A DNA stretch of 54,466 bases. Origin: a bacterium (lineage in GTDB: Bacteria > Hinthialibacterota > Hinthialibacteria > Hinthialibacterales > Hinthialibacteraceae). Positions within the stretch are counted from its first letter, which is position 1, and each line of letters starts with the position of its first letter. This document shows, in pieces, positions 17,461 to 53,034 of the stretch. Under the pieces are notes generated by a model that was not told the DNA's origin, did no database searches, and worked only from the letters and a program-made list of their open reading frames with translations. Position numbers and translations under genes: made by a program. The stretch covers positions 1 to 54,466 of the forward strand of contig WGLV01000048.1 of assembly GCA_016125385.1 (NCBI GenBank). The letters are read 5' to 3'.

Positions 17461-18759
17461 TTACTGAGAGCGTTCGCGGAAAAACAGGTTGGTGCGTTGA
17501 TCGGGCCTGAAGCCACGATCGCCGGGCGAACGTCCCAGCCGGTAGTTTTGCGCCGGGTTGAACTGGCCCGTGGGATCGGTTAACGACGAGGCTGGATCGG
17601 TTCGCATGACGATTGGCGCGACGCCCCGGATGCGTTTCTTTTCTTTACGGCCTTCGGTCATGCTTTCAAACTCGACATCGACGACGACCTTCACTGTGCC
17701 GTTATAGGGTTTCAGCGGAACGAAAGCCAGATTGTCGGCGAGCAACTCCTGCACGTCGGACTGGCGGTTCGTCACGTCCTGATTCGTTCCGCCGCCGATT
17801 TCAAAGGAGCGGATCAGCCCCACGTTTTCCGCATCACCGGTTTCATCGACGCGAAACTCGATGGTGGCGTTGGGGTCGATCGCTGTGATGGGGATGGGCT
17901 GGCCGTTGGAGCCGATGACCCGGAACGACAGGAACGATTGTTTTTTGGCGCCCTGTTGCGAAATGAAATCATCAGGGCTGACCTGAAGCATGGGCGGATT
18001 GGCGATCACCTGCACCGACTCGGCGGTCAGTTTGGGGGTTGGAGTCGGAGTGGGCGTGCCCGCCTGAGCGGTCGGCGCCGCCGTGGGGGTATTGCGCGGC
18101 GTGGGCGTGTCGAACGGCGTTCCGGTGGGCGAGGGGGTGGGCGTTTCATCGCCGCCGTTGCCGCCGGGAGCGGGGACCAACTGGATGTTATCGATATACG
18201 CGATGCTGTCAGGGTTGTTCATATCGCCGTCAAAGACGATTTTCAGCGTGTTGATGCGCGCGAAGGTGCTTGTGCTGTAATTCAGCTTCATCGATTTGGA
18301 CGACGCCTTGCCCACGATTGTGCTGGGCGTACCCGGATAGATCAGCACCTGGTTGTCTCCGATAAAGACGCGCATCTGGCCCTGACGAATATCGGCGCAG
18401 AACGAGATTTTGTACCATGTATGGGTCACGTCCGAGTCTTTATTGGGAACCTGAACCAGAGAATCGCCGGGTTCGAATTCGGCGTAATGGTTGGTGATAA
18501 AGTTACCGGTATCATCCGTGAGAGGGCCCAACTGCGATTTGATTACGGCGGGGCTCTGCGATGTCGACCAGCCGAATGGCAACTGACCATCCGCGGACGC
18601 CAGTTCAAAATCGCCGTTATTGAGAAGCGTATCGGGATCGAGCGTTTCGTTGATGCAGTCGAAATCGAAATTGGCGTCCTGGGTGATCTGCGCCGAGACG
18701 ATGAGGGCGCAAATCAGGCAGATCACGGATGCGGCCGCGAAAATCTTGTATGGCTTCAT
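17461..18759 (-). CDS. Secreted carbohydrate-binding-like protein with Thr-Pro linker
   Basis: A 432-residue exported protein with signal peptide MKPYKIFAAASVICLICALIV and cleavage near SAQ. Residues about 45-200 look like a galactose-binding-like (CBM) beta-sandwich: 'LLNNGDFELASADGQLPFGW' at the start and 'SIAYIDNIQLVP' at the end, the usual frame of such domains. A Thr-Pro linker (about 205-245) follows, then an Ig-like domain ('VQVIANPPMLQVSP', 'FLSFRVIGSNGQPIPITAI') in the style of filament or adhesin proteins. No catalytic site. It lies 118 bases downstream of the giant K-like pseudopilin in the same direction and ends at the terminator, so it may be a partner of the pilus tip. Confidence 0.7.
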   Translation of the reverse strand: MKPYKIFAAASVICLICALIVSAQITQDANFDFDCINETLDPDTLLNNGDFELASADGQLPFGWSTSQSPAVIKSQLGPLTDDTGNFITNHYAEFEPGDSLVQVPNKDSDVTHTWYKISFCADIRQGQMRVFIGDNQVLIYPGTPSTIVGKASSKSMKLNYSTSTFARINTLKIVFDGDMNNPDSIAYIDNIQLVPAPGGNGGDETPTPSPTGTPFDTPTPRNTPTAAPTAQAGTPTPTPTPKLTAESVQVIANPPMLQVSPDDFISQQGAKKQSFLSFRVIGSNGQPIPITAIDPNATIEFRVDETGDAENVGLIRSFEIGGGTNQDVTNRQSDVQELLADNLAFVPLKPYNGTVKVVVDVEFESMTEGRKEKKRIRGVAPIVMRTDPASSLTDPTGQFNPAQNYRLGRSPGDRGFRPDQRTNLFFRERSQ

Positions 18760-18834
18760 GGGTCCATCCTTTTTGCGGAGCTCGCCGCGGCGGGCTCCCG
18801 TTTCCTCAAAAGCGCTTATACCACTATCTTATCG

Positions 18835-18863
18835 CAAACCGGACGGTTTCGTCAGCCGGTTTG
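18835..18863. other. Inverted repeat between giant pseudopilin and downstream gene
   Basis: CAAACCGG and CCGGTTTG form an 8-bp stem around a 13-base loop, just downstream of the giant gene's stop. No T run follows on the minus strand. It may be an RNA-processing or partial-termination element that separates expression of the two genes. Confidence 0.4.
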
Positions 18864-18877
18864 TTTCCGTTTTCCCG

Positions 18878-21800
18878 TTAGCGGGAGCTGTAAACCGACT
18901 CCAGTTTGCGCTGGGCCACCAAGGTGCCATCCTTATCGTAGATGCGGCCCTGAGCCACCACGCCGAAGGCGCGCGATTTAACCGTTACCAGATTGGATAT
19001 GCGGTTCATCATGGCTTCCATGTCTTCCGGCGTGAGTTCGCGGCGCATTTCAGAATTCAAGCGGTCGCGCAGGTCGCCGGCGCCGTCCGGCTTTCCATCG
19101 CCAGTGCGGTCCATCGCACGCTTCAGGGCGTCTGAGTAGCGTTCACGGCGGCGTAAGTGAGTGATCTGTTCAAACAGGGTTCCCAGATTTTCATACGGGC
19201 CGTCGTCGGGGGCGGTTTCCCACGCGGTCAACGCGGCGTCTTTGAGATCGACCTGGGTTCCGTACACGTCCTGCGGCTTGATGTTCAACTTGTTGAAGCG
19301 CTGGGATTTAATGTACGTGAACAGTTTGAAGCTGGTGGGTTCGCGTCCCACGCTTTTCAATTTGAATTCTGAAATGGTATCCACATCGCGCTGATAGTTC
19401 AAAAAGCCCGACAGGAAGAGATCATCGTTAAGACCCTGAACGCCGAAGCTGGTATCGTGTCCGGTGGGCTGGCGGCCCTCCAGAATATAATCGGCGGCGA
19501 TCAGGTTGAATTCGCTGCGGACGCGCAGGTTTTCCAACTTGCCGGGTGAGGCCGGAGGAGTGAAGGGAAGCGCGGCCAGCACTTCACGCTGCGCGGTGTT
19601 GACGTTGATCTTGCCGGGCACGACGCCGTCGAGCGCGGTGGTGATCAGGTCGTACAGCGGGGTGTACTGGTTCTCCCACTGATCGAGCCGCTCGCGCTGA
19701 GCGAGCTGAATGCGGTAATCGGGCTGGTCGTTACTGTCGCCGACGCGTTTCGCTAACGCTGGATTGGAGAGAACACGCCCCGCCTGCATGGCGGCGTCTT
19801 CAAGCCGCTGAGGAATAATGGGCGTGTTGACCGTTTCGAATTTCTTGCCGGTATAAAGCCGCGACAGTTCGCCGATGGTCGCCAGCGGACCGTTTTTCAC
19901 GTAGGCGGTATTGTCGATCACGTCGAACTCGTCACGCGATGTTCCACGAAGATCGAGACGCCGGCGCGGATACGCCGGGGTGTAGCCGGTGTTATCGCGG
20001 CCCGGCGTGCCGGCGAGATACTGCATCGTTTTTTCAGGATTGGCCTGCTGAGCCAGACCCGGACCACGGCCCCGGCCGAATAACTCGACGCCGCGGAAGA
20101 AATAGTTGTCGTCGCCGGCTGAGCCCATCGCCAGAAGCTGTCCCGTCGAGTCTTCAAACTGCCCGTCGCCATTGCGATCCCGGAGAGGCATCTGGGTGCG
20201 CGTGCTGAGATCGGGGCGGTCCTGCTGAGTGATCTGGGGATTGATGGGCGATGCGACGTCTTTGGTCGATTTGCGCATCACCACCGCGATTTCGACCTGA
20301 GGTTCGGATTCAGAACTGTTCTGCAGGTCGCTCCACAGGTCGCGGTAGTCTTTGCGCAGGTCGATAGTGAAGGCGGTATCGCCGTTACGCAGCTTGGCGA
20401 AAACCGGCATACGTGACGTGCTGCGCGAGCCCACGAAGTAGGGATCGTCAGGGTTGGGGGCCGATTCGGGTTCTTTGCCGATCGGGTTGAGGCCCGGATC
20501 GATCAGGTTAAAGGCGGGATTCACCAGAACTTCACCCACGGGCATATCAAAGGGAAGCATGTCGCCCGCATGGGCCAGCGTTTTGCCGCTATCGATCAGG
20601 GGAACGCGAGTGACGTACTGGCGGCCAAGGACTTTCACCGTCAGATGATCGTCGACGTCGGGATCGTACCCCGCGCGGATCAGCTCGCGCAGGCCGACCC
20701 GCCAGATGAAAGCGGTGTATTGAACCTGGCGCGGGTCCTGTACGTTGGTGAAGTTTTCAAAGCCGCCCAGCATATCGTAAAACAGCACTTTATCGGCGGC
20801 GCTGGGCGAAGAACCGGCTTCACGCGCCATGGACGCGCTGCGTTCCATCGCCGTGCGGTACTGGGCGTCGCGTTTGGGCAGGTCGCGGTTGTATTCATAC
20901 GAATCGCCGATGAAGTCCCACCCGTTCCACCACGCGTCGTGGAAGCCCGCGCTGAATGGACCCATCAAACGGTCCTGAAAGCGGGAAATGGAACGATTGT
21001 TGGGATCGCTTTCGGTCCCCCGGTTGCGGTCGGTGTAGCCGCCGAAGGCGCCGCGTTTGAAATTGAACGCCCGGTCGGGAACCAGATTGACGACCATCGC
21101 GTCTTTCGCGTCGAGAATCATATTGGAGGGAACGAAACGTTCCGCGCTCAACGTATTGGTGATCGCATCGACTTTCGATTGGGTTCTGAAGTAGGTCGGG
21201 TCGGTGCGTTCATAGGCCTGGAAGCCGGTGTAGCCCGGCAATGCGACGATATCCAAGTTGGCGCCCATGTTGGGGATGTCGACCACGGCGTTGTTGAAGG
21301 TGGTGCGGTAGCGGAACGAGTCAATGTAATTGCCCGCCGGATCGTAGAGAGTGACCATCTTCTGGCGCGGGTTGTCGGTCAGGACGTCTTCCTGATAATC
21401 GAACAGACGGAAGCCTTCATCGCCGACCTGAGCGTTGGGGCGTTTGGGGTCGGCGGGATTGAGACTTTTGAGGCTGCGTTCGATGTCGGCTTTTTCATTC
21501 GTGGCGAGAACCGGCTGGAAGATGCGGTCCTGCGGCTGATAGATTTCGGGATAATTATCGCTGATAAAGGTGCGCAGACCCGCCGCGTTGTACGCCAACA
21601 GAATCTTGTTGTCTTCCATGCGCAGGTCCTGGTTGGAAATCGGGTTACCCAACCGATTCTGGTCGATCATGGGCTCGAAGGGGACGCCGATTCCGGGCAT
21701 GCCGTTCGGGGTGAGACGATCCTGACCGTCGTCGCCTTCATACGCCGGTTTCATACGATGAATCACGGTGTCTTGAGGCAGGACGTAATGACCGTAAGGC

Positions 21801-24800
21801 GTGTTGATCGTCCAACCGCCGAGGTCGACGTCATCCATGCCGATGTTGACGAGTTCAACGTACTGCGCGTAGGGGTTAATCAATTCGATGCGGTCGATCG
21901 AGGTGACGTAGTACGGTTTGACGGCGGCGTCCGGCTTTTTGGCCAGGATGCGGAGCGTCAGTTTTCCGTCGTTTTTCACTTCGACGCGGCCTTGTTTGGG
22001 ATCACCAAATCGCTGGCTGAAGGTCTGTGCGTCGCCGGGCCAGTAGGTCAGGCGGTAAGGCAGGGGGAATTCGGTTGAGCCGTGCAGCCGGTCGTCCCAG
22101 CGCGCGGTATCGCGGCGCAATACTTCATACGTCGCGGGGTCGGTGGTCTGGAGGTTGGCGATGGGCGTTTTGACTCCATTCGCCACGACCGCCGTATCGC
22201 TTTTCATCGGGATCCGTTTTTCGTTGAAGTAATACTCGACTTCCGGTTCCATCTCGTTGTTGGGATGGATGTACACGACAACGTCGTAAAAGCCCGCCGG
22301 AATGTTTTCAAACACCCACTGGCCTTCTTCGTCTTCAGCCGCGATGGTGGGATCGACCTGGGTGGCTTGTGGCGCGACGTTGGTCACCATGAAGATGAAC
22401 GCCGGAGCCAGCGCGTCGAGATTGGCCATCGGTACGACCGGATTGAAGGTGTTTTGAAAGCCCTGGGGTAAGAACAGGTTGGGGAAGGGGAACGAGAACC
22501 CACCGCGCGACGAAATCGCGCCAACCGACCACTGCGTATCGGCGGGAACGCCGGGAAGCTGGCCGTTGTCACCCGCGCCGCCGCGGCGGGGGCGCGGCTC
22601 AATGAAGCGCCCTTTCTTCGCGGTGACGACTGGAGCGGTATTGGGATCAGACGGATCGTACTGAATGGATTCGAGCACGTCTTCCATCTCAAGGCGGATG
22701 ACCGGCTGAGCGAGCACTTCATTGATACGAATCGATTCAACGCCTTCGTAGGTGACCTTCAACCCGGTTTGAGGCGGGTTGGGCAACAGGTACTTCATCT
22801 CGTCGATGAAGAGCTGACGGTCTTTCGCCTGGGCGTTGGGGCCGGTCAACAGCCGGGGGTGCATACGGAACGCGCGCTGGCGCGAGGTGTACAGCTCAAG
22901 CGTCTGGAAGGTGACCGGGTCGGAAAGCACCGCGTCGTCTTCGGTTTTGCCCAAAACCTGGCGGACGTCATCGTCTTCGGCGGGGGTATAGGGTCCCCAC
23001 GTATCGACGAAGTCGATCAGGTTGAGGGCGATCTGGAACTCGGCGGGATCTTCATCCATACGGCCGTCTTCGTCGTCGTCATACGCGGCGATGTATCGTT
23101 CGCCGATTTCATCGACCTGACCGTCGCCGTCGTTATCGACGCCGTCCAACTCGGGGGCGTACATCGCGGCGAGAACCTGGGGATCGTCAAAGTCGGCGAA
23201 ACCATCCCAGTCGTCGTCGGCGAAGCTGGTATAGAGAAAGTCGTCGCGTTCCTGCGGAGCGGTGACGATATCGCCTTCAGCGGAGTCTTTTTTGGCGTCG
23301 GGATCGCCGCCGAGGCCCGGGTAGCCGTCGCCCGAGAGGTCGCCGAAGTCGTCTTCGTTGAGGTGCCACTCGGGGTCATAGGTCAGCATCTTATCGCCGT
23401 TGAAATCGCCGTCGTCATCGATCAGGTTATCACCGTCGTCGTCCTGGCCGTTGCCTTCGATGACCATGCCGGGGCGGATGTCGTTGTCATTGACGTCGCG
23501 CGGGCGCTGGGCGTAGTCGGTCTTGTCGCGTGGCAGGCGACGCAGGCGGCCTTCGGCGTCCTGACTGTTGATGGTTCCATCGCGTGTTTCGCCGTCGAGG
23601 TCGTCGTCCTTGCCGTTTTCAAGGAATTCAGGCGAGCCGAGATCGGCTTCACCGAATCCGTCAAAGTCGGGGCTGGGGTAGAAATTTCCATCCCAGTCGT
23701 CGGAGGGTTCGTCGATCAGTCCGTCGCCGTCGTTATCGATGCCGTCGGGTTTGCCGTTGGTGACGTCGGCTTCCGCTTCGTGCTGCCAGTCCTGATCGTT
23801 GTCGACTTGAAGGACGAACATATCGCGCACGCTGAGGGGCGGGCCATACTGGAAATCAGCGACCTTGGTTTTTCCACCGCCGACGTTCCACGTATCGAGC
23901 GCGCGCCAGTTGTAGGCGGCGTTGGGGTTGATCTTGCCGACTTCATTATTTTTACCGGACAGCGGGCCCGCGACTTCATCCGACTGGCTCCAGATAGTGG
24001 TGGAGTTGCGCAGGATGTTAAACATCGTGGGAGGAGGCGATTCGAGGCGCGGTGGAACCGCGTCGCTGACGCCCCGCATGGGTTGCAGCAGTTTCAGGTC
24101 GTCGAGTGTGGCGAAGGGGCGGTCGTCGCCCTTGGGCTTGTAGACGTCGAATTCGGACGGGTCGTCAATGCCCTCGTCTTCTTCATCGATATACCCGTTG
24201 CCGTTATCGTCGATGCGGTTTCCGGGGCGGAAGTCTTCAAGGTTGCCGGAGCGCTGTTCGATGGGGCCGTCGAGAGGCGTACCGCTGGAGTTGATGGTGG
24301 TGGCGGCGATATAGGTTTCGTCTTCTTCATTGGTCAGGCCGTCATCGTCGTCATCGGCGTCGTTGCCCACGATGGCGAAGGGCTGGCCGTTGAAGTTTGG
24401 CGTGTTAAACGCCTGATCGAAATCCTGAACCTCAAGAATTTTAGGGTTGTTATTATTATTGTCGTCCTTGTTATCTTCACCGGGTTTTCTCACCGTCACG
24501 CCGCCGTCGCTCACGCTGCCGTTGCGGAAGTTGACGATATATTGCGCCAGTTGTTCGGCCTGGCTTTCGCTGAACTGGGCGACCGATCCGTTGCGGGAAT
24601 ACTGGACGATGCGCTGGTACAAAAACACCGGCAGGTCGAGTTCGTTGGGACCAACGCCCTGGTTGTAAACGAAGGAGCCGCCGGAGCCGTTGTTATTGCC
24701 GGCGAAGTTGAGGTTGATTTTGGCCGATTCATCGAAGACGCCCACCAGGTCGCCGTCGTTGTCATACCCGGTACCCGGCGTGAAGAAGAGTCCGTCGCGG

Positions 24801-25438
24801 CGGACGTCGTAGTGGTCTTCATCGGTGCGGAAATCTTCATCGTCGTCGAACGGATTCAGCAGATCCGCCTGATCTTTGGTTTCGCCGGTGATGCCGTCGC
24901 GATTGTCGTCGATTCCGCCGAGGCCCGGCTTGTTATCGCCGCGCCCGGCGTAGCCGATGCGCCGCTGACCGGTGACGTCGCCGGGCGGGTCTTCATCAAT
25001 GCCGCGCGGAATCGGCGTGGGGAGAATGCGAAGGCCGGTGCGCTGGACCACGGCCTCGGGGCGCTCGTCTTTCATAAAGGCACGGGCGTCATAGCGAATC
25101 TCGGGCGTGGTCTGGCCTTCGTACCCCAGGTACCACGGATCGAGTTGAGATACGTACTTGGGTTGAAGCCGGCCGAGCACGACGTGCTCCTGTCCGGGCG
25201 ACAGGTCATTGGACAATTGGCCCAGTACGCCCTGAATGGCCGATTCAGCCGCCTGTTGGACGTTGACGCTCTGCGCGTAGTTTTTGACGGTGATTTCTTC
25301 CATGCGGATGGTATAGATGAAACCCGTCAGAATGATCGCGAAGATGGCCAGCAGCGCCGTAACCGTCAAGAGCGCGATGCCGGATTCGGAAGAGCGATCC
25401 CGAGTCGTTTGATAGTGTTTCCGCGGTAACTGCATCAT
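18878..25438 (-). CDS. Giant GspK/PilX-like minor pseudopilin with calcium motifs and lamin-tail-like domain
   Basis: About 2,186 residues; typical GspK is about 320. The N-terminus 'SSESGIALLTVTALLAIFAIILTGF' is a prepilin signal with Gly20 before the cleavage site. Thr replaces Glu at position 5 of the mature chain, as expected for K-type pseudopilins. Residues about 150-870 hold at least eight Asp-rich calcium-type loops ('DNDGDGLIDEP', 'DDNGNGYIDEEDE', 'DNDGDGQVDE'). 'INEVLAQPVIRLE' near 909 and 'YVELVNIGMDDVDLGGWTI' near 1190-1210 look like a lamin-tail domain split by about 280 residues. Near 1943 'PGKINVNTAQREVLAALP' is the GspK SAM/helix-hairpin-helix signature. Start at 25438 (AAGGG upstream) places the signal correctly; a longer reading has 79 unrelated residues. 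It probably caps a secretion or adhesion pseudopilus and depends on Ca2+ (inference). Confidence 0.8.
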   Translation of the reverse strand: MMQLPRKHYQTTRDRSSESGIALLTVTALLAIFAIILTGFIYTIRMEEITVKNYAQSVNVQQAAESAIQGVLGQLSNDLSPGQEHVVLGRLQPKYVSQLDPWYLGYEGQTTPEIRYDARAFMKDERPEAVVQRTGLRILPTPIPRGIDEDPPGDVTGQRRIGYAGRGDNKPGLGGIDDNRDGITGETKDQADLLNPFDDDEDFRTDEDHYDVRRDGLFFTPGTGYDNDGDLVGVFDESAKINLNFAGNNNGSGGSFVYNQGVGPNELDLPVFLYQRIVQYSRNGSVAQFSESQAEQLAQYIVNFRNGSVSDGGVTVRKPGEDNKDDNNNNNPKILEVQDFDQAFNTPNFNGQPFAIVGNDADDDDDGLTNEEDETYIAATTINSSGTPLDGPIEQRSGNLEDFRPGNRIDDNGNGYIDEEDEGIDDPSEFDVYKPKGDDRPFATLDDLKLLQPMRGVSDAVPPRLESPPPTMFNILRNSTTIWSQSDEVAGPLSGKNNEVGKINPNAAYNWRALDTWNVGGGKTKVADFQYGPPLSVRDMFVLQVDNDQDWQHEAEADVTNGKPDGIDNDGDGLIDEPSDDWDGNFYPSPDFDGFGEADLGSPEFLENGKDDDLDGETRDGTINSQDAEGRLRRLPRDKTDYAQRPRDVNDNDIRPGMVIEGNGQDDDGDNLIDDDGDFNGDKMLTYDPEWHLNEDDFGDLSGDGYPGLGGDPDAKKDSAEGDIVTAPQERDDFLYTSFADDDWDGFADFDDPQVLAAMYAPELDGVDNDGDGQVDEIGERYIAAYDDDEDGRMDEDPAEFQIALNLIDFVDTWGPYTPAEDDDVRQVLGKTEDDAVLSDPVTFQTLELYTSRQRAFRMHPRLLTGPNAQAKDRQLFIDEMKYLLPNPPQTGLKVTYEGVESIRINEVLAQPVIRLEMEDVLESIQYDPSDPNTAPVVTAKKGRFIEPRPRRGGAGDNGQLPGVPADTQWSVGAISSRGGFSFPFPNLFLPQGFQNTFNPVVPMANLDALAPAFIFMVTNVAPQATQVDPTIAAEDEEGQWVFENIPAGFYDVVVYIHPNNEMEPEVEYYFNEKRIPMKSDTAVVANGVKTPIANLQTTDPATYEVLRRDTARWDDRLHGSTEFPLPYRLTYWPGDAQTFSQRFGDPKQGRVEVKNDGKLTLRILAKKPDAAVKPYYVTSIDRIELINPYAQYVELVNIGMDDVDLGGWTINTPYGHYVLPQDTVIHRMKPAYEGDDGQDRLTPNGMPGIGVPFEPMIDQNRLGNPISNQDLRMEDNKILLAYNAAGLRTFISDNYPEIYQPQDRIFQPVLATNEKADIERSLKSLNPADPKRPNAQVGDEGFRLFDYQEDVLTDNPRQKMVTLYDPAGNYIDSFRYRTTFNNAVVDIPNMGANLDIVALPGYTGFQAYERTDPTYFRTQSKVDAITNTLSAERFVPSNMILDAKDAMVVNLVPDRAFNFKRGAFGGYTDRNRGTESDPNNRSISRFQDRLMGPFSAGFHDAWWNGWDFIGDSYEYNRDLPKRDAQYRTAMERSASMAREAGSSPSAADKVLFYDMLGGFENFTNVQDPRQVQYTAFIWRVGLRELIRAGYDPDVDDHLTVKVLGRQYVTRVPLIDSGKTLAHAGDMLPFDMPVGEVLVNPAFNLIDPGLNPIGKEPESAPNPDDPYFVGSRSTSRMPVFAKLRNGDTAFTIDLRKDYRDLWSDLQNSSESEPQVEIAVVMRKSTKDVASPINPQITQQDRPDLSTRTQMPLRDRNGDGQFEDSTGQLLAMGSAGDDNYFFRGVELFGRGRGPGLAQQANPEKTMQYLAGTPGRDNTGYTPAYPRRRLDLRGTSRDEFDVIDNTAYVKNGPLATIGELSRLYTGKKFETVNTPIIPQRLEDAAMQAGRVLSNPALAKRVGDSNDQPDYRIQLAQRERLDQWENQYTPLYDLITTALDGVVPGKINVNTAQREVLAALPFTPPASPGKLENLRVRSEFNLIAADYILEGRQPTGHDTSFGVQGLNDDLFLSGFLNYQRDVDTISEFKLKSVGREPTSFKLFTYIKSQRFNKLNIKPQDVYGTQVDLKDAALTAWETAPDDGPYENLGTLFEQITHLRRRERYSDALKRAMDRTGDGKPDGAGDLRDRLNSEMRRELTPEDMEAMMNRISNLVTVKSRAFGVVAQGRIYDKDGTLVAQRKLESVYSSR

Positions 25439-25568
25439 TGCTTCAACCCTTTTCGTTTCACGTGCGAGGCGCGGCCGGTTGAAGGCGCGCGCCCGCCATC
25501 GGCTTGTCATTTCCTGCGTATCCCATGACCCGGCGAAGCCGCCTCGCGGGCGGGTTCGCGGCGAAGCG

Positions 25569-26861
25569 TCATCCCAGACCGATGCTGCGGTAGTTGTTGG
25601 GGATGAAGACGCGCGTGGTGTAGGGCATGGGGATTTCCTGTCGTTTGCGGTCCTGCACCCAGATGGTGATTTCAACCAGGTTGGGCAGGCCGTCGGTACG
25701 TTTGATCATTCGTTCGAGGACGTTTTTATACTGATCGTCCGACATGATCGTGGTCGGGTCCGATACCTGAAAGCGTTGCAGGTTGAACGGCTCGCGCGGA
25801 TACATGTCGTCGAGTTCGTTGACGATCACGTTGGCGAAGCTCAACCGCGTGTTGCCTTCGATGCTGTTGTTGGCCGCCGGCGCGTTGAAGATGCGTTGCG
25901 AGGGCGGCACCAGGGCGGTCTCACGCGCCGAGTCCCACTCCGGGGTCCAGCGCCAGCCGCCGCGATTGTAATCGAAATACCAGTAATGAACGCGCAGCCC
26001 GCGAATGTCGTAGGCCAGTACTTCAAAAATCTTGGCGGGCGAGTTGTTCGCCAGCACCGTGCTGTTGCCCGTAAGCGAGCCCAGCTCAGATCCTTTGTCC
26101 CAATTCGCGACCGTGCGGTTTACCATCTGGGGCGATTGCACCTGCCCCACGACCAGCGGGGGAGGCACCAGCGGCTCCTGAGTCTGATTGTCGATGAACT
26201 GACCGAAGTCGGCGAGTTCGCGCTGGTTATTGGCGGAGCTGCTGCCCAGCGAAAGGTTCTGGGAGCGGCGGACAAGCCGCGTTCCGCTGGGATCGAGACC
26301 GTAGGACACTTCGGTCAGGATGATGTCGCCTGAATTTTCAACCGCGGTGACGAAGTGAAGCATGTCGCTGGGGATTTCGCCGAGGTCTTCATCGATAAGG
26401 CCGTCGTTGTCGTTGTCGATGCCGTCGAGGGCTTCTTCGTCTTTGTCGCCGTCGCCGTCGTCATCTTTGCCGGCGCCCGGAATCTCCGTGTAGTTTTTCG
26501 ATTCGAGATCGCGGAAGAGACCGGCGAAGCGAAAACGCGGGGCCGTCTGGTTGGCGGTGTTCAGCCCCGAGGGGAGAAGCGGCTTCACCGAATCGGGGGT
26601 GAGGTACGCGGTGCGCAGCTCGCTGGAAAGGAAATCGAGCGCGGTGCGCGCGGTTTCGTTGCGTTCGAGGCGGTTAACGGCGATCTCGCGCGCTTCGAGC
26701 ACGGTTTTAAACGTCTGCGCCGCCATCCCCGCCAGAATCGAGAGCACCGCGACGGAGATCAATAACTCCACCAGGGTGAAGGCGCCTTCCCGCGCCGCGA
26801 ACGAGTTCGCCGGGCGCCGGGCGCGCGAGGTTCTAATCCGTGTGGGCATTCCGAGGCTCAT
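25569..26861 (-). CDS. GspJ/PilW-like minor pseudopilin
   Basis: A 430-residue prepilin-like protein. The class III signal is 'AAREGAFTLVELLISVAVL'. The conserved Glu is followed by a hydrophobic helix that anchors the protein before processing by a prepilin peptidase. Two calcium-type loops occur near residues 140-165 ('DDDGDGDKDEE', 'DNDNDGLIDEDLGE'). The C-terminal half is beta-rich as in GspJ. The ATG at 26861 is preferred because GGAAG lies just upstream and the signal then has a normal leader of 26 residues. It lies between the I-like and K-like genes, the order of type II secretion minor pseudopilins. Confidence 0.85.
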   Translation of the reverse strand: MSLGMPTRIRTSRARRPANSFAAREGAFTLVELLISVAVLSILAGMAAQTFKTVLEAREIAVNRLERNETARTALDFLSSELRTAYLTPDSVKPLLPSGLNTANQTAPRFRFAGLFRDLESKNYTEIPGAGKDDDGDGDKDEEALDGIDNDNDGLIDEDLGEIPSDMLHFVTAVENSGDIILTEVSYGLDPSGTRLVRRSQNLSLGSSSANNQRELADFGQFIDNQTQEPLVPPPLVVGQVQSPQMVNRTVANWDKGSELGSLTGNSTVLANNSPAKIFEVLAYDIRGLRVHYWYFDYNRGGWRWTPEWDSARETALVPPSQRIFNAPAANNSIEGNTRLSFANVIVNELDDMYPREPFNLQRFQVSDPTTIMSDDQYKNVLERMIKRTDGLPNLVEITIWVQDRKRQEIPMPYTTRVFIPNNYRSIGLG

Positions 26862-26905
26862 GCTTGCTTCCTTTGCTTCCGCCTGCATTCCTTCGCCTAC
26901 CGTCC

Positions 26906-28414
26906 TTACTCGATTTCGATGCTGTTGACCAAGCCGCGCGGCTGTCCGCTGTTCAGCGTGAACGACAGCGACGGGTCTTGCAGGTTGATAAAGCCAACCA
27001 GAATAAACTCGTCTTCGTAGGTATCTTCGTCGGCCTCACCATCGCGGTCGTTGTCGAGGCCGTCGCGTTTTTCTTCATCGATTCCCCATTCGATCGAGCC
27101 GTAGGAGATACGCTGGCGGCGCGTCTCGCGCGGGTCGATCTCGCCGAAGGCCGCCTGACTCTTGGGGTCGACGCGGGTCAGGTCACCATCGTTATCCTTG
27201 CCGTCGCCGCCCCAGGTGATCTTGATCTCGACCCGGCGCCAGTTGGGCAACGGCGAGGCCACGCAGTCTTCATCGACCAGACCGTCCTGTCCGGGCGGGC
27301 GAGTGAATCCGCGCAGAAAGCCGACGCCGCGCTGCCGCCGCGCCACGATGGGGAAATCCATGTCGAGGCCGTCTTTCAGTTCTTCGTCGACCAGGCCGTC
27401 GCCGTCGTTATCGATGCCGTCGCCAAGATCGGGAATGCCATCTCCGTTCACGTCGACCAGTCCCCAGCGTCCGTTATCGGGAACCACGCCGACGCGGATC
27501 TGCCAGCCGAACTTGTTATACGGGGCGGGGAAGAGCGCCGGGCTGGGCGGAAACGCGGCCAGCTGGCAGTCTTCGTCGATCTTGCCGTCGCCGTCGTTGT
27601 CGCGGCCGTCCCATACTTCTTCGTCGATGCCTTCGTCGATCTGACCGTCGCCGTCGTTGTCGATGCCGTCCGCGATGGCGGGGGTGGTTGGATCGCCGTC
27701 GTTGTCTTCGCCATCGAAGTCGTTATCGACGCCGTCGCCCGCCAACGTGGGCAGGAAGACGAACGAGTTGAGAATCCGCACCGAGGCGAGCCGGACGTCT
27801 TCATCAATCAGGCCGTCGCCGTCATTGTCGATTCCATCAGGAAATTCTTCATCGATACGCGGCTCGGGGTCATACCATAAAATGCCGTCCGGCGCCCAGC
27901 GCGAGAACGTCGCCGGGACGCTTTGCAGATTGGCCGACCAACTGTCGCCGTTGTCGTCGATGACGCCGTCGCCGTCGTCATCCAATCCGTTCGCACGGAC
28001 GTTTCTCATGCCCAGACGCTGTGCGAGGGCGTCGAACTCGGGCATGCCGTCGTAATCCGCATCGGGCAGGCCGTTTTTGTTGAGGTCGAACGGGTTGCGG
28101 TTGTTTCGTGGATTGTAAACGCTGTTGTTTTCGTCGTCGTCGTATCCATTGCCGGGCATGGGGATCAAGGTCAGGTCGGCGCCGGGTATGATCGGGAAGT
28201 TCCGCGGATCGGTCTTCATGCCTTCGAAGATGCTCTGCGCCAGCAGGGAGGCCTGCGTAACGTTTTCAGAACGCTTGCTGGCTTCGATGCCGTAAGGGAA
28301 CACGCCAACGATGGAGAGCAGACCCAGGCCCAACATCGTGGCGGCGATCATGACTTCAATCAATGAAAAGCCGCGCTCTGTGCGTACCGGGCGGCGATTC
28401 GTTCGTACTGACAT
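26906..28414 (-). CDS. GspI/PilV-like minor pseudopilin rich in calcium-type repeats
   Basis: A 502-residue protein; GspI is normally about 120 residues. The prepilin signal is 'RTERGFSLIEVMIAATMLG' (cleavage after Gly15, Glu at mature position 5). From residue about 95 on there are some nine Asp-rich loops of the kind 'DNDGDGLIDEDV', 'DNDGDGQIDEG', 'DNDGDGKIDED', 'DNDGDGLVDEE', 'DNDRDGEADED'. These resemble thrombospondin type 3 and EF-hand-like calcium ligands. The extra length is nearly all such repeats. GGAGG lies 5 bases before the ATG at 28414, which fixes the start. It begins 17 bases after the H-like gene. Confidence 0.85.
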   Translation of the reverse strand: MSVRTNRRPVRTERGFSLIEVMIAATMLGLGLLSIVGVFPYGIEASKRSENVTQASLLAQSIFEGMKTDPRNFPIIPGADLTLIPMPGNGYDDDENNSVYNPRNNRNPFDLNKNGLPDADYDGMPEFDALAQRLGMRNVRANGLDDDGDGVIDDNGDSWSANLQSVPATFSRWAPDGILWYDPEPRIDEEFPDGIDNDGDGLIDEDVRLASVRILNSFVFLPTLAGDGVDNDFDGEDNDGDPTTPAIADGIDNDGDGQIDEGIDEEVWDGRDNDGDGKIDEDCQLAAFPPSPALFPAPYNKFGWQIRVGVVPDNGRWGLVDVNGDGIPDLGDGIDNDGDGLVDEELKDGLDMDFPIVARRQRGVGFLRGFTRPPGQDGLVDEDCVASPLPNWRRVEIKITWGGDGKDNDGDLTRVDPKSQAAFGEIDPRETRRQRISYGSIEWGIDEEKRDGLDNDRDGEADEDTYEDEFILVGFINLQDPSLSFTLNSGQPRGLVNSIEIE

Positions 28415-28431
28415 GGGGGCCTCCATCAGAT

Positions 28432-29265
28432 TTACCCTTGATTCGGTTCGTCGTTGGGCCAAGGTCCAAAGATCGCGAAATCGTAGGTTCGCGTCTTACC
28501 GGTCAGCCACAAAATCTCAATGGTTCCGATCTTGTAGCGTTGCTGGGCGTTCACGCCGTCGTCAAAGTTCCACTGCGAGAACTGGATGTTTCCGTTGACG
28601 AGATCGGCGTAGGTTTTGGTTCCGTTATTGGCGATATCAAATATTTCGTTGTCGCGGGCGATGTAGATCATGGCGGCGCGGTTTTTGGGACGCGCCGCGC
28701 TTTCACCGCCCTGGAAATAAATCTTGCTCAACTGACCGCGTGGATTAAATTCGATGTACAGGTTTCGATTGTAGGTGCTCTGTCCATCGCCTGGATCGTC
28801 GTTGCCGACGCCGACGACGACCTCACCCACGCCGACGACGGACACGCCGTCGGGAAGGTAATCGGGATCGGTAATGGAGTAGTTGTTATCGGTATTGCCT
28901 CGCGGGTCCTGACAGTAGGCTTTTTCTTCGAAGCCGAATTCTTCGCAGATTTTGCCTTCGATCCATATCTGGGCGCGGCGGGTGCGGTATCCTGAGAAAT
29001 TGCGGCCGCTGAATCCGTCGAGTTCGCCTGGATCAATCGCCACCCGGCGCGACTGCCGCATCGCGATCGCCATCTGGCGCGCCTGAACCAGATTGGTATT
29101 CACGATTCCAACCGTGGCGGAAATTTTGCTGCTGCCTACCTGATGCACATAGGCGACGGAACCCAGCGCGGTGAGGACTCCAATGATTCCGATCACCACG
29201 ATCATCTCGACCATTGAAAAACCCGCGGTCGATCGCCTGTCACTCCATGTTCGATTTTTGCTCAT
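28432..29265 (-). CDS. GspH/FimT-like minor pseudopilin
   Basis: A 277-residue protein with prepilin signal 'STAGFSMVEMIVVIGIIGVL' (cleavage after Gly15, Glu at mature position 5) and a soluble domain starting 'VNTNLVQARQMAIAMRQSRRVAID', the typical helix-then-strand layout of GspH/FimT. It carries no obvious calcium loop repeats, unlike the next three genes. The ATG at 29265 follows AAGGG and gives a normal short leader; 43 in-frame codons upstream have no pilin features. It is the first gene of the pseudopilin operon. The assembly ATPase, platform protein, secretin and prepilin peptidase are not in this window. Confidence 0.85.
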   Translation of the reverse strand: MSKNRTWSDRRSTAGFSMVEMIVVIGIIGVLTALGSVAYVHQVGSSKISATVGIVNTNLVQARQMAIAMRQSRRVAIDPGELDGFSGRNFSGYRTRRAQIWIEGKICEEFGFEEKAYCQDPRGNTDNNYSITDPDYLPDGVSVVGVGEVVVGVGNDDPGDGQSTYNRNLYIEFNPRGQLSKIYFQGGESAARPKNRAAMIYIARDNEIFDIANNGTKTYADLVNGNIQFSQWNFDDGVNAQQRYKIGTIEILWLTGKTRTYDFAIFGPWPNDEPNQG

Positions 29266-29962: not shown

Positions 29963-30712
29963 ATGGTCATGAGAAGTCTGATGATTTCAATGGTGGCTTG
30001 TCTGGCGGCGGTTGGCGCTTATGACGCGCAGGCCCGCTTTCTGCTCAACGACGGCGACGTCATCGTTTTTCTGGGAGACAGCATCACCCAGGCGGGCGCC
30101 GCTCCCGAGGGGTACGTCACCCTGTTCGATCTGTTCTGCGGCGTGAACGGGTATGAGGTCAAAGTCATTAACGCCGGCATCAGCGGTCATAAATCCGACG
30201 ACATGCTGGCGCGGCTCGACCGGGACGTGTTGTCCAAAGACCCCGACTGGGTCAGCATTTCATGCGGGGTGAACGACGTCTGGCATCAATTCATGGAGAA
30301 TCATAAAGGCGTTCCACTGGATGAATACAAAAAGAACATGACCGAGATGGTCGACCGGATTCAAGCGAAGGGCGCGAAGGTTCTGCTATTGACCGCCACC
30401 GTGATTTATGAAGACCTGAACAGCGATCAGAACAAGATGCTGAAGGGGTATAACGATTTTCTGCGCGAGTTCGCCAAAGAGAAAAACCTGTTGCTCTGCG
30501 ACTTAAACAAGGCGTTTCAGGAACGGATCAAGCAGAAGATGTTCCCCGATCAGAAACTGCTCACCGTCGACGGCGTTCATATGAACCCGCGCGGAAATCG
30601 TTTGATGGCGCGCGAGATACTGCGTGCGCTGGGCGCCGAGGGCGGACAGATCGCCCAGGCGGAAAAACGCTGGGAACTGATCAATAACATGGGTAAGGAA
30701 GGGGGCAAATAA
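29963..30712 (+). CDS. Secreted SGNH/GDSL-type esterase
   Basis: A 249-residue hydrolase with a signal peptide ending near 'AYDAQA'. The SGNH blocks are all visible: 'VIVFLGDSIT' (nucleophile Ser40), 'NAGISGHKSDDM' (Gly), 'SCGVNDVW' (Asn) and 'DGVHMNPRG' (Asp and His). It likely removes acyl groups, for example acetyl esters, from polysaccharides outside the cytoplasm. GGGAGAG lies just before the ATG. It is separated from the sulfatase gene by a single base, so both are cotranscribed and may act on the same decorated glycan. Confidence 0.88.
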   Translation: MVMRSLMISMVACLAAVGAYDAQARFLLNDGDVIVFLGDSITQAGAAPEGYVTLFDLFCGVNGYEVKVINAGISGHKSDDMLARLDRDVLSKDPDWVSISCGVNDVWHQFMENHKGVPLDEYKKNMTEMVDRIQAKGAKVLLLTATVIYEDLNSDQNKMLKGYNDFLREFAKEKNLLLCDLNKAFQERIKQKMFPDQKLLTVDGVHMNPRGNRLMAREILRALGAEGGQIAQAEKRWELINNMGKEGGK

Positions 30713-30713
30713 G

Positions 30714-32168
30714 ATGACCGAAACCAGCGCCAATTCCATCGCGCAATCGACTCGCCGCCGATTTTTGAAAACCGCCGTCGCGGCGGGCGCGGCCGCTCCA
30801 CTGGCTCAGTTTTCGCGGAACGCCGCAGCCGCTTCGGGCAAGCGCAACATCATTTTCATTCTGATCGACGACATGCGCTTCGATTCGATGAGCTGTATGG
30901 GGCATCCTTTTTTGAAGACGCCCAACCTGGACCGTCTGGCGGGCGGCGGCGTATTGTTCAACCACGCCTACGTGACCACGTCATTGTGTTCACCGAGCCG
31001 CGCCAGCATTCTCAGCGGACAGTACGCTCACCAGCACGGGGTACTCGACAACAGCACCCTGCTGCCCAAGGGGACGCCGATCTTCCCCATCGAATTGCAG
31101 AAAAACGGCTACGACACCGGATTCATCGGCAAGTGGCACATGGGCGGCAGCTCCGATGAACCGCGTCCCGGTTTCGACCGTTGGGTCAGTTTCCGCGGTC
31201 AGGGCGTTTATATCAACCCGACGTTCAACATCGATGGGAAGCAGGTCAAGCGAGACGGTTACGTAACCGACCTGCTGACCGACTACGCCGAGGACTTCAT
31301 CAAGCAGGACCGCGAGAAGCCGTTTTTCCTTTATCTGTCGCACAAGGCGGTTCATGCTGATTTTTACCCAGCCGAACGCCACAAGAAAGCGTTCAGCGAC
31401 ATCAAGATCGAACACCCCGCTTCAATGGCGGATACGCCGGAGAACTATGAAGGCAAGCCGCTCTGGGTGAAACGGCAGCGTCACAGCTGGCACGGCGTCG
31501 ATTATATGTATCACGATCAGACCGACTTCGATAATTTTATCCTCGATTACAACCGCACCATGCTGGCGGTTGACGACAGCGTGGGCCGGGTGATGGATAC
31601 GCTCGAAAAACAGGGGCTTCTCGACGATACGCTGATCTTGTTGATGAGCGACAACGGTTTTCTGCATGGTGAACACGGCCTGATCGACAAGCGCTGCATG
31701 TACGAGGAATCGATCCGCGTACCGCTGCTGGCCCATTGCCCCAATCTGTTCGACGGCGGGCGCCGCACCGACCGCATCGCGCTTAATATCGACATCGCAC
31801 CGACGATTCTCGAAGCCGCCGGGGTTTCGATCCCCGATACCGTACAGGGCGAATCGTTCATGCGCGTGTTGAAGGACGACGACGCGAACTGGCGCGAGGG
31901 CATGTTGTACGAATATTTCTGGGAGCGGGCGTTTCCGCAGACGCCGACGGTGTTCGGCGTTCGCACCGAGCGCTACAAGTACATGAACTTCCACGGAATC
32001 TTCGACCTCGACGAGTTGTACGATCTCGAAAAAGACCCGCACGAGATGCACAACCTGATCGATGACGCGGCTTATCACGACGTGCGCGTCGACATGGAAA
32101 AACGCCTGCGGGATCTGCTCAAGGAAACCGAAGCCGATATGGTCCCCAGTTTCAAAGCGGGAAGTTGA
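30714..32168 (+). CDS. Tat-exported type I sulfatase
   Basis: A 484-residue sulfatase. The N-terminus 'TRRRFLKTAVAAGAAA' is a twin-arginine signal. The catalytic sequence 'SLCSPSRASILSG' has Cys92, which must be converted to formylglycine, and Arg96. Metal ligands appear in 'FILIDDMR' (Asp52, Asp53) and 'LLMSDNGFLHGEHGL'. The family (S1) removes sulfate esters from glycans such as N-sulfoglucosamine or choline sulfate; the substrate is unknown. A maturase is not in the window. The start codon follows the esterase stop by one base, with an AG-rich SD inside the end of that gene. Confidence 0.9.
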   Translation: MTETSANSIAQSTRRRFLKTAVAAGAAAPLAQFSRNAAAASGKRNIIFILIDDMRFDSMSCMGHPFLKTPNLDRLAGGGVLFNHAYVTTSLCSPSRASILSGQYAHQHGVLDNSTLLPKGTPIFPIELQKNGYDTGFIGKWHMGGSSDEPRPGFDRWVSFRGQGVYINPTFNIDGKQVKRDGYVTDLLTDYAEDFIKQDREKPFFLYLSHKAVHADFYPAERHKKAFSDIKIEHPASMADTPENYEGKPLWVKRQRHSWHGVDYMYHDQTDFDNFILDYNRTMLAVDDSVGRVMDTLEKQGLLDDTLILLMSDNGFLHGEHGLIDKRCMYEESIRVPLLAHCPNLFDGGRRTDRIALNIDIAPTILEAAGVSIPDTVQGESFMRVLKDDDANWREGMLYEYFWERAFPQTPTVFGVRTERYKYMNFHGIFDLDELYDLEKDPHEMHNLIDDAAYHDVRVDMEKRLRDLLKETEADMVPSFKAGS

Positions 32169-52280: not shown

Positions 52281-52367
52281 GAGCGCGTTTGGCCTGTGAA
52301 TGGCCGCCGACAAATCGGGCGAGCATGGTGAGTTTTTGTTCAATAACCACTCGTTCATCTTATTTTC

Positions 52368-52397
52368 TTGCGAAACTTTATCAATTGATGATAAAAT
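52368..52397 (+). promoter_or_regulatory. Candidate promoter with overlapping dyad, pseudopilin gene
   Basis: TTGCGA (52368-52373), an 18-base spacer and TAAAAT (52392-52397). The dyad TGATGAT-N7-ATCATCA (52386-52406) overlaps the -10, as an operator would. Confidence 0.45.
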
Positions 52398-52458
52398 CGA
52401 TCATCATCCTGGCTCACCCAACCCGCGTTTATGCTTTGATCTATTTGGAGGAATCTCA

Positions 52459-53034
52459 ATGATTCTCAACCGGGATGAGCGGGGCTTTACGCTGATCGAA
52501 TTATTGATTGTGGTTGCGATTATCGGTATTCTGGCGGCGATCGCCGTTCCGAATTTTCTGAACGCGCAGATTCGCGCCAAGGTGTCGAAAACCGAAGCGG
52601 AAATGCGCAATTTCGTCACCGCGCAGGAGATGTACCGCCTCGATAACAACGCCTACCCACCTCATTTTCACACCCCGTGGCAGAACAAGTTTCTCACCAC
52701 CCCGATCTCTTACGTCGGCTCCATGCCTAAAGACATTTTTATGAACCCGAAGAATCCCGATCCCGTAGCGTGGCCGCTGACTTATGGCGAATATCACCGC
52801 GAACAGATCTATAACAGCGACGGCGGCGTGATTCTGCCGCCTCAACAGCGAGTACCCAACAATCCCGACGATGTGCGGCGGGGACTGGCGGGAAAGCCAT
52901 TTGCTTATGAACTCTGGAGCGTCGGTCCGAACGGCGCGCTGGATTTCAACGTGAACGGCATCACCGGTTTCACCTATTATCAGGCATCGAACGGAACGCT
53001 CAGCATCGGCGATATTGTCTGGGTCAGGCCGTAA
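52459..53034 (+). CDS. GspG-like type II secretion pseudopilin
   Basis: A 191-residue prepilin. The signal 'RDERGFTLIELLIVVAIIGILAAIAVPNFL' is cut after Gly9, leaving Glu at position 5. 'RAKVSKTEAEMRNFVTAQEMYRLDNNAYP' is the alpha-1 C-terminal part typical of GspG, and the C-terminal part has 'FAYELWSVGPNGALDF', close to the GspG end that binds Ca2+ in studied systems. The ATG at 52459 is fixed by GGAGG at 52447-52451. It is monocistronic and far from the H-I-J-K cluster, but may supply the major subunit for the same pseudopilus (inference). Confidence 0.88.
   Translation: MILNRDERGFTLIELLIVVAIIGILAAIAVPNFLNAQIRAKVSKTEAEMRNFVTAQEMYRLDNNAYPPHFHTPWQNKFLTTPISYVGSMPKDIFMNPKNPDPVAWPLTYGEYHREQIYNSDGGVILPPQQRVPNNPDDVRRGLAGKPFAYELWSVGPNGALDFNVNGITGFTYYQASNGTLSIGDIVWVRP

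Follow-up and report, generated by a model that had tools for sequence, protein, structure and literature searches.

How T2SS and pilus tips recognize their ligands is a wider question, and a locus in a bacterium of the family Hinthialibacteraceae bears on it: what complex is formed by four prepilin-like proteins when three of them carry calcium-type loops and one of the three exceeds 2,000 residues? The locus was analyzed within a 54,466-nucleotide stretch of DNA (contig WGLV01000048.1 of assembly GCA_016125385.1), which is referred to as a whole as the window.

Gene organization and pseudopilin identity

The four prepilin genes lie on the minus strand in the minor-pseudopilin order H-I-J-K (29265 to 18878), at the positions given for them in a preliminary description of this DNA; a prepilin motif is present in H, I, and J, and a gene for a secreted protein comes next (Table 1).

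Table 1. Features of the cluster and of the window
Feature	Coordinates	Strand	Characteristics
H-like minor pseudopilin	28432–29265	−	277 aa; prepilin motif STAG/FSMVE; no calcium-type loops
I-like minor pseudopilin	26906–28426 (or 28414)	−	502–506 aa; pI 4.05; motif ERG/FSLIE; 10 loops
J-like minor pseudopilin	25569–26888	−	430–439 aa; motif EGA/FTLVE; 2 loops
Giant GspK-like protein K	18878–25438	−	2186 aa, 244 kDa, pI 4.45; motif ESG/IALLT; 10 loops
Lamin-tail-like domain of K	21800–22744	−	Residues ~900–1215; galactose-binding/CBM-like segment apparently inserted in domain
GspK-type helix-hairpin-helix motif 'GKINVNTAQREVLAALP' of K	19562–19612	−	hhalign; PF03934 T2SSK subthreshold
Secreted protein after K	17461–18759	−	432 aa; no loops; orthologs and gene order
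Divergent SGNH hydrolase and sulfatase genes adjoining H	29963–32168	+	PF13472 1.2e-27; PF00884 1e-60
GspG/PilA-like prepilin, away from the cluster	52300–53034	+	PF07963 2.2e-10; T2SSG 4.8e-4; TIGR01710 7.7e-16

The N-terminal helices fit pilin models. N_methyl (PF07963) exceeds its curated cut-off in H (6.4e-5), I (5.4e-5), and J (5.2e-6), all of which contain the Glu+5 of the prepilin cleavage/N-methylation motif, and the first helix of K matches GspK. The N-terminus of H matches TIGR01708 GspH (1.9e-4, 21.5 of 80 bits) and Verru_Chthon D (1.2e-5), both below the cut-offs; that of I scores best to PilV (1.9e-9, 38.1 of 52.2 bits, below the cut-off) and also matches XpsI (5.9e-6); and that of J matches gspJ (2.6e-4, 20.9 of 64.85 bits, below the cut-off) and Verru_Chthon C (1.5e-8). 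No whole-family equivalog model for GspH, GspI, or GspJ scores over its cut-off with H, I, or J, and K is under the cut-off of both GspK family models, NF037980 (21.5 of 130 bits) and PF03934 (0.098, 13.5 of 24.2 bits). All four proteins are far under the curated whole-family cut-offs, with matches limited to N-termini and short motifs. Most cluster proteins escape the existing family models, so comparable giant tips from uncultured phyla probably go under the label of unrelated hypothetical proteins. A sequence search of solved structures with the four prepilin-like proteins and the secreted protein returned pilin N-termini only or no meaningful match. The loops of I are placed between the first helix and the predicted strands, and its AlphaFold model (mean pLDDT 38) is weak except for that helix.

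Three segments of K, in the same order along the chain, align with GspK (hhalign against a GspK alignment): the first helix (Prob 95, E 2.8e-8), the alpha-domain motif 'DRPFATLDDLKLL..TIWS' (Prob 67, E 5e-5), and the hairpin 'GKINVNTAQREVLAALP' (INVNTA..EVL.ALP; Prob 79, E 1.7e-5). As in GspK, Glu+5 is absent. The length is about five times the usual (2,186 residues versus ~440 in GspK), which makes K unusually large. Where the preliminary description saw an expansion by the loops, these explain part of this size; nine of the 10 lie within residues 177 to 787, and much of the added bulk consists of ~900 residues outside the loops, including the lamin-tail-like domain. PF00932 LTD matches 8 of 8 K orthologs (best E 6.5e-6), the window copy scoring 22.2 bits versus a cut-off of 34.3. 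The AlphaFold model of K residues 895 to 1990 (mean pLDDT 45) is weak except for the lamin-like region. On this low-confidence model, Foldseek gave matches to lamins (prob 0.9 to 1.0) and to CBM35 (prob 0.8 to 0.9), all with E > 0.01 (0.02 to 0.06 for the CBM6/CBM35-like folds); sequence search gave no support for a CBM in K. K appears to carry a lamin-tail-like domain and may also have one that is carbohydrate-binding-like.

Calcium-type loops

Dx[DN]x[DN]G loops number 10 in I, 2 in J, and 10 in K, in line with the earlier counts of about nine, two, and at least eight. Composition-preserving shuffles gave expectations of 0.37, 0.04, and 0.61, respectively, and none of 2,000 reached the observed counts. 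The strict DNDGDG-type loop occurs 7 times in the 5.5-Mb genome, always within the cluster. Between orthologs, identity at the putative ligand positions of the loops is 85% for I (50% for the remainder) and 79% for K (44% for the remainder); the shuffles and this conservation together rule out chance composition of an acidic protein. The I and K orthologs contain arrays of 8 to 13 loops. Because different families of the class have loop columns in common, most of the loops are of ancient origin, and a recent repeat expansion was rejected.

Loop positions 1, 3, 5, 6, and 9 fit the consensus Dx[DN]xDGxxD. Position 9 is Asp in 72%, and Dx[DN]x[DN]G with an acid at this position was taken as EF-hand-like; no preference was seen for the canonical EF-hand Glu at position 12. 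EF-hand, dockerin, Excalibur, and TSP3 models match neither I nor K, and one I ortholog weakly matches the MopE "putative metal-binding" model (PF11617, E 0.039). The ordinary GspKs of the class each contain one EF-hand-like loop, GED[VT]NxNGxLDxNEN; what the arrays have amplified is therefore a trait that the lineage already had. Similar loops are found in fewer copies in pilins and GspKs of other phyla. Overall, the H-I-J-K set with its loop arrays, the oversized K, and the conserved secreted gene after K agree with the first description. We infer that the loops of I, J, and K may bind Ca2+.

Distribution and assembly machinery

Parts of the cluster are present in 14 of 14 genomes of the class, with conserved loop positions; the order H-I-J-K is found on one contig in 9 genomes and cluster parts in the other 5, and H orthologs were found in relatives. 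Among 386 genomes, no full-length I or J homologs were found outside the class, and a scan of named genomes with K matched a single contig, QZKN01000081. The secreted protein has a type I signal, an NGDFE-type N-terminal domain, a Thr-Pro linker, and a conserved RGFRPDxRTNLxF C-terminus, and matches no model in Pfam or NCBIfam. In both families that possess it, its gene lies immediately after K, as orthologs and gene order show, and it is a conserved partner. A GspG-like gene immediately follows K in one relative (G010). The SGNH gene has the same place in three same-family relatives (synteny in L079, L081, and L083), and the sulfatase gene was read in two.

Secretins, T2SSE ATPases, and prepilin peptidases are encoded in the genome. 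The preliminary description would have been refuted by a genome lacking secretion or pilus assembly genes or by N-terminal helices that failed pseudopilin models, and neither is the case. Three other T2SS loci, each with its own minor pseudopilins, were read from open reading frame (ORF) order with secretin and T2SSE matches, so the cluster is an additional set, not the genome's sole one, and needs machinery in trans. ORF order also revealed Tad loci, PilB/PilT-type loci (with such ATPases at C47), and, at C50, an MshA-like locus. The genome has 104 N_methyl matches, including the GspG/PilA-like prepilin of the window. No ATPase, platform, or secretin gene stands beside the cluster in the window or in the relatives examined.

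Proposed role and alternatives

The explanation that we favor, and consider probable as a whole, is that the product of the cluster is an extra tip (priming) complex of minor pseudopilins, specific to the lineage. The genome's prepilin peptidase would cleave the four proteins, and a T2SS or type IV filament machine encoded elsewhere would assemble them on a major pseudopilin. K would be a GspK with an enlarged alpha-domain region, capping the filament with I and J. The roughly twenty Dx[DN]x[DN]G loops would bind Ca2+ and hold the long insertions of I, J, and K, predicted to be poor in hydrophobic core, extended and rigid; calcium stiffening, a tip location, and a role in adhesion or secretion are plausible. 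A ligand, most plausibly a polysaccharide or an exported enzyme, would be bound by K through its lamin-tail-like domain and the possible carbohydrate-binding-like one, perhaps with the help of the secreted protein. We infer assembly in trans, the tip position, and the ligand; most likely, the product would serve a T2SS or type IVa pilus as an alternative tip complex that depends on calcium and is specialized for binding. It counts against this explanation that no E, F, or D gene adjoins the cluster, that the whole-family scores are so low, that loop position 12 lacks the conserved EF-hand Glu, and that a tip of ~350 kDa (the combined mass of I, J, and K) would need to pass or sit in a secretin, and how a 244-kDa GspK does so is a question that the cluster raises.

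FimU-pilV-pilW-pilX-pilY1 is the gene order of type IVa minor-pilin operons, and H-I-J-K with the secreted partner has the same order. The cluster could then be a type IVa pilus tip set of FimU-PilV-PilW-PilX equivalents, with the secreted gene in the PilY1 position, serving adhesion or twitching and not secretion; such sets have been described (PMC8833165), I scores best to PilV, and the loci at C47 and C50 could provide for such a pilus. K has a GspK-like first helix and GspK motifs (the INVNTA hairpin, DRPFAT..DL, and TIWS), however; the secreted protein has no PilY1 domain, and a genome search for PilY1, which had no working control, found none. We rate this reading as unlikely.

Filament assembly might also be dispensed with, the four being membrane-anchored surface or periplasmic proteins with borrowed prepilin N-termini and the loops a Ca-dependent scaffold, as the very wide use of this N-terminus in the genome would allow, along with the fact that none of the relatives examined has assembly genes in cis. 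Against this, four distinct types are kept together and in order across the class, and H, I, and J have Glu+5 while K lacks it, like real tip sets; we consider this reading very unlikely. In either assembly scenario, the loops could be flexible acidic spacers or sites for another metal; the lack of EF-hand, dockerin, Excalibur, and TSP3 matches, the weak MopE match, and the missing position 12 Glu would agree with this. Against it, positions 1, 3, 5, 6, and 9 fit the pattern through which PilY1 binds Ca2+ (PMC8833165), and conservation is clearly higher at the putative ligand positions than elsewhere in these proteins; we find it improbable. A bolder version of the tip complex reading is tentative: a calcium-armored type IV filament tip limited to one phylum-level lineage (OLB16/SURF_12), with three jointly expanded pseudopilins forming a ~350-kDa binding head, separate from the three ordinary T2SSs and representing a new functional tip class and not a secretion piston.

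Comparison with known systems

The T2SS tip GspH-I-J-K (XcpU-V-W-X) shares with the cluster its gene order, prepilin signals, lack of Glu+5 in K, GspK alpha-domain and hairpin motifs, and an association with calcium, GspK/XcpX being known to bind Ca2+ (PMC6211770). It differs in that the cluster K is ~5 times longer, arrays of 8 to 13 loops are found in the I and K orthologs, and the cluster stands alone, extra to three T2SS loci. Four prepilin-type families, one modeled as a very long GspK-like protein, also make up the Verru_Chthon cassette A-D (TIGR02600, 02598, 02599, and 02596). Membership in it was rejected, as matches are to N-termini only (TIGR02596, 02598, 02599, and 02600 give 25.5 of 70, 16.9 of 51.4, 34.3 of 256.5, and 12.6 of 332.3 bits), and TIGR02600 at 1e-8 has no match in any genome of the class. 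Literature searches found nothing relevant to calcium-repeat pseudopilins or to this cassette. MopE-type metal-binding motifs (PF11617) have a similar DGxDNDxDGxxDE-like pattern and contain cysteines, which are absent in the cluster, where the single weak match to an I ortholog is the only one.

PilY1 tips require Ca2+ via Dx[DN]xDGxxD loops, and Myxococcus has several minor-pilin sets beside single-copy machine genes (PMC8833165). The cluster resembles these systems in its loops at a predicted tip, in the number of tip sets, and in the secreted protein encoded after K, but here it is the pilins that bear the loops, in large numbers, and no PilY1 beta-propeller was found (by the same uncontrolled search). 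Modular type IV pilins bear grafted binding domains that are probably tip exposed, as in PilB/PilC of S. sanguinis, CofB, and ComZ (PMC8179133); in the cluster, several subunits of one complex are expanded jointly, and K has 2,186 residues versus 860 in the most extreme multidomain case named in that survey. Joint growth of I, J, and K within a conserved set whose calcium-type loops keep their positions would demonstrate that entire tip complexes can be remodeled into large display heads. The cluster is an extreme variant of the known modular pilins and not a new kind of machine.

The cluster comprises five minus-strand genes, from 29265 down to 17461, whose starts and upstream sequence were taken directly from the window DNA. 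Only 5 to 17 bases separate the H stop from the I start, depending on the start chosen, and 17 bases separate the I stop from the J start; gaps of about 130 and 118 bases lie 5′ of K and of the secreted protein gene, respectively. Cut-offs of whole-protein GspH/I/J/K family models were tested and were reached by none of H, I, J, and K; we therefore term K GspK-derived and H, I, and J minor-pseudopilin-like, a putative assignment based on N-termini, motifs, and gene order. A complete type II secretion system (T2SS) is not claimed here.

Cluster genes and neighboring features
Feature	Position	Strand	Remarks
H	28432-29265	-	Prepilin motif over Pfam cut-off
I	26906-28426 (alternative start 28414)	-	Prepilin motif over Pfam cut-off
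J	25569-26888	-	Prepilin motif over Pfam cut-off
K	18878-25438	-	GspK-type start, without Glu+5
Secreted protein gene	17461-18759	-	Last of the five cluster genes
SGNH hydrolase and sulfatase	29963-32168	+	Adjoin H, divergent; likewise placed in other members of the family
Dockerin type I and cohesin-matching protein	4217-7165	+	Long imperfect Thr-Pro repeat (PTNTPVPPTATPESPTATPVGETATATPV)

Judged by sequence, K is a GspK carrying very large insertions. Compared as a profile with an alignment of 14 GspKs, it matched collinearly in three segments. The first helix scored Prob 95, DRPFATLDDLKLL...TIWS scored Prob 67, and GKINVNTAQREVLAALP scored Prob 79. The last two segments lie about 1,450 residues apart in K versus roughly 150 in ordinary GspKs of the same genome (read-off). 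A lamin-tail-like domain at about residues 900 to 1215 was found in 8/8 orthologues, with sub-threshold or weak scores, and was also retrieved by fold comparison. A CBM35/CBM6-like resemblance of the same region (E, 0.02 to 0.06), which sequence searches did not support, comes from a model with a mean pLDDT of 45 and is a lead only.

The putative calcium-type loop Dx[DN]x[DN]G occurs 0, 10, 2, 10, and 0 times in H, I, J, K, and the secreted protein, versus means of 0.04, 0.37, 0.04, 0.61, and 0.05 in shuffled sequences; nine of K's ten loops fall within residues 177 to 787. Among 236 loops of relatives, the most frequent residues are [D]G[I]D[DN]D[G]DG[L][I]DE; position 9 is Asp in 72% of these loops. 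Orthologues are 85% identical at putative ligand positions versus 50% elsewhere in I, and 79% versus 44% in K. A strict loop codon pattern has seven matches in the 5.53-Mb genome, all within this cluster, and its reverse has none. A slightly stricter loop pattern matches in 14/14 genomes of the class, with 40 of the 52 places listed inside this cluster (manual count), and at least once in 61 of 372 genomes outside it; there, the loci shown are mostly unrelated proteins, with a few pilin-like exceptions. In another phylum, genome G040 (L166:2-2311) encodes a GspK of 769 residues that has three such loops (GMDNDRDGLIDE, GIDNDADGWIDE, and GEDDDKDGYIDE). G322 (L161, L206) encodes G-, I-, and J-type prepilins and an 866-aa GspK-like protein; several of these proteins carry Dx[DN]x[DN]G loops, and they may form a convergent, loop-rich set.

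The genomes compared are incomplete metagenome-assembled genomes (MAGs), and loci were read from open reading frames (ORFs). The H-I-J-K order stands on a single contig in G000 (the genome of the window), G001, G002, G003, G006, G007, G008, G010, and G012; G004, G005, G009, G011, and G013 hold portions on contig ends or broken contigs. J and K frames look fragmented in G011 (L090), by assembly error or decay, and a GspG-like major pseudopilin gene lies directly 3′ of K in G010 (L092:6037-6903). K orthologues whose two ends share a frame span about 1756 to 2217 aa and contain 9 to 13 loops; complete or nearly complete I orthologues contain 8 to 10. Among 386 genomes searched, full-length homologues of J and I occur only in this class, matches elsewhere being confined to the N-terminal pilin part. 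One relative with a K match, G004, is MAG SURF_12 (contig QZKN01000081); it is filed at NCBI under Omnitrophota and named as a misclassified OLB16/SURF_12 lineage (PMC10066038). The gene immediately upstream of H in the sister family (L087:16883-18184) encodes TolB_N-like and FGE-sulfatase domains; a sulfatase also adjoins the cluster in the first family.

GspK/XcpX binds Ca2+ (PMC6211770). The ordinary GspKs of the class have one loop each, GED[VT]NxNGxLDxNEN, which was missing from other-phylum GspKs among the matches shown by the same search. Amplification of loops in I and K would yield long insertions held by ions rather than a hydrophobic core. Given K's lamin-tail-like domain, the secreted partner encoded next to K, and one family's divergent SGNH hydrolase and sulfatase, our best guess is a cell-surface role in binding polysaccharide or the enzymes associated with it. 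Service to a type IVa pilus also fits, as the gene order is compatible with fimU-pilV-pilW-pilX-pilY1 sets and I most resembles PilV; however, K has GspK motifs, and we therefore favor probable T2SS use.

The genome has eight secretin, twelve T2SSE (one sub-threshold), and two Peptidase_A24 matches. It also has 104 N_methyl prepilin matches in 5.5 Mb, many in scattered genes of about 200 to 250 aa. ORF order indicates three T2SS loci (C8, C53, and C2), each with its own minor pseudopilins and a K confirmed by GspK model matches, as well as Tad (C30), MshA-like (C50), and PilB/PilT-type ATPase (C47) loci. Since the T2SS loci already own minor pseudopilins, the window cluster is a further set that would have to use machinery in trans. 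Such use is plausible by analogy with Myxococcus, in which several minor-pilin/PilY1 sets exist alongside generally single-copy machine genes (PMC8833165).
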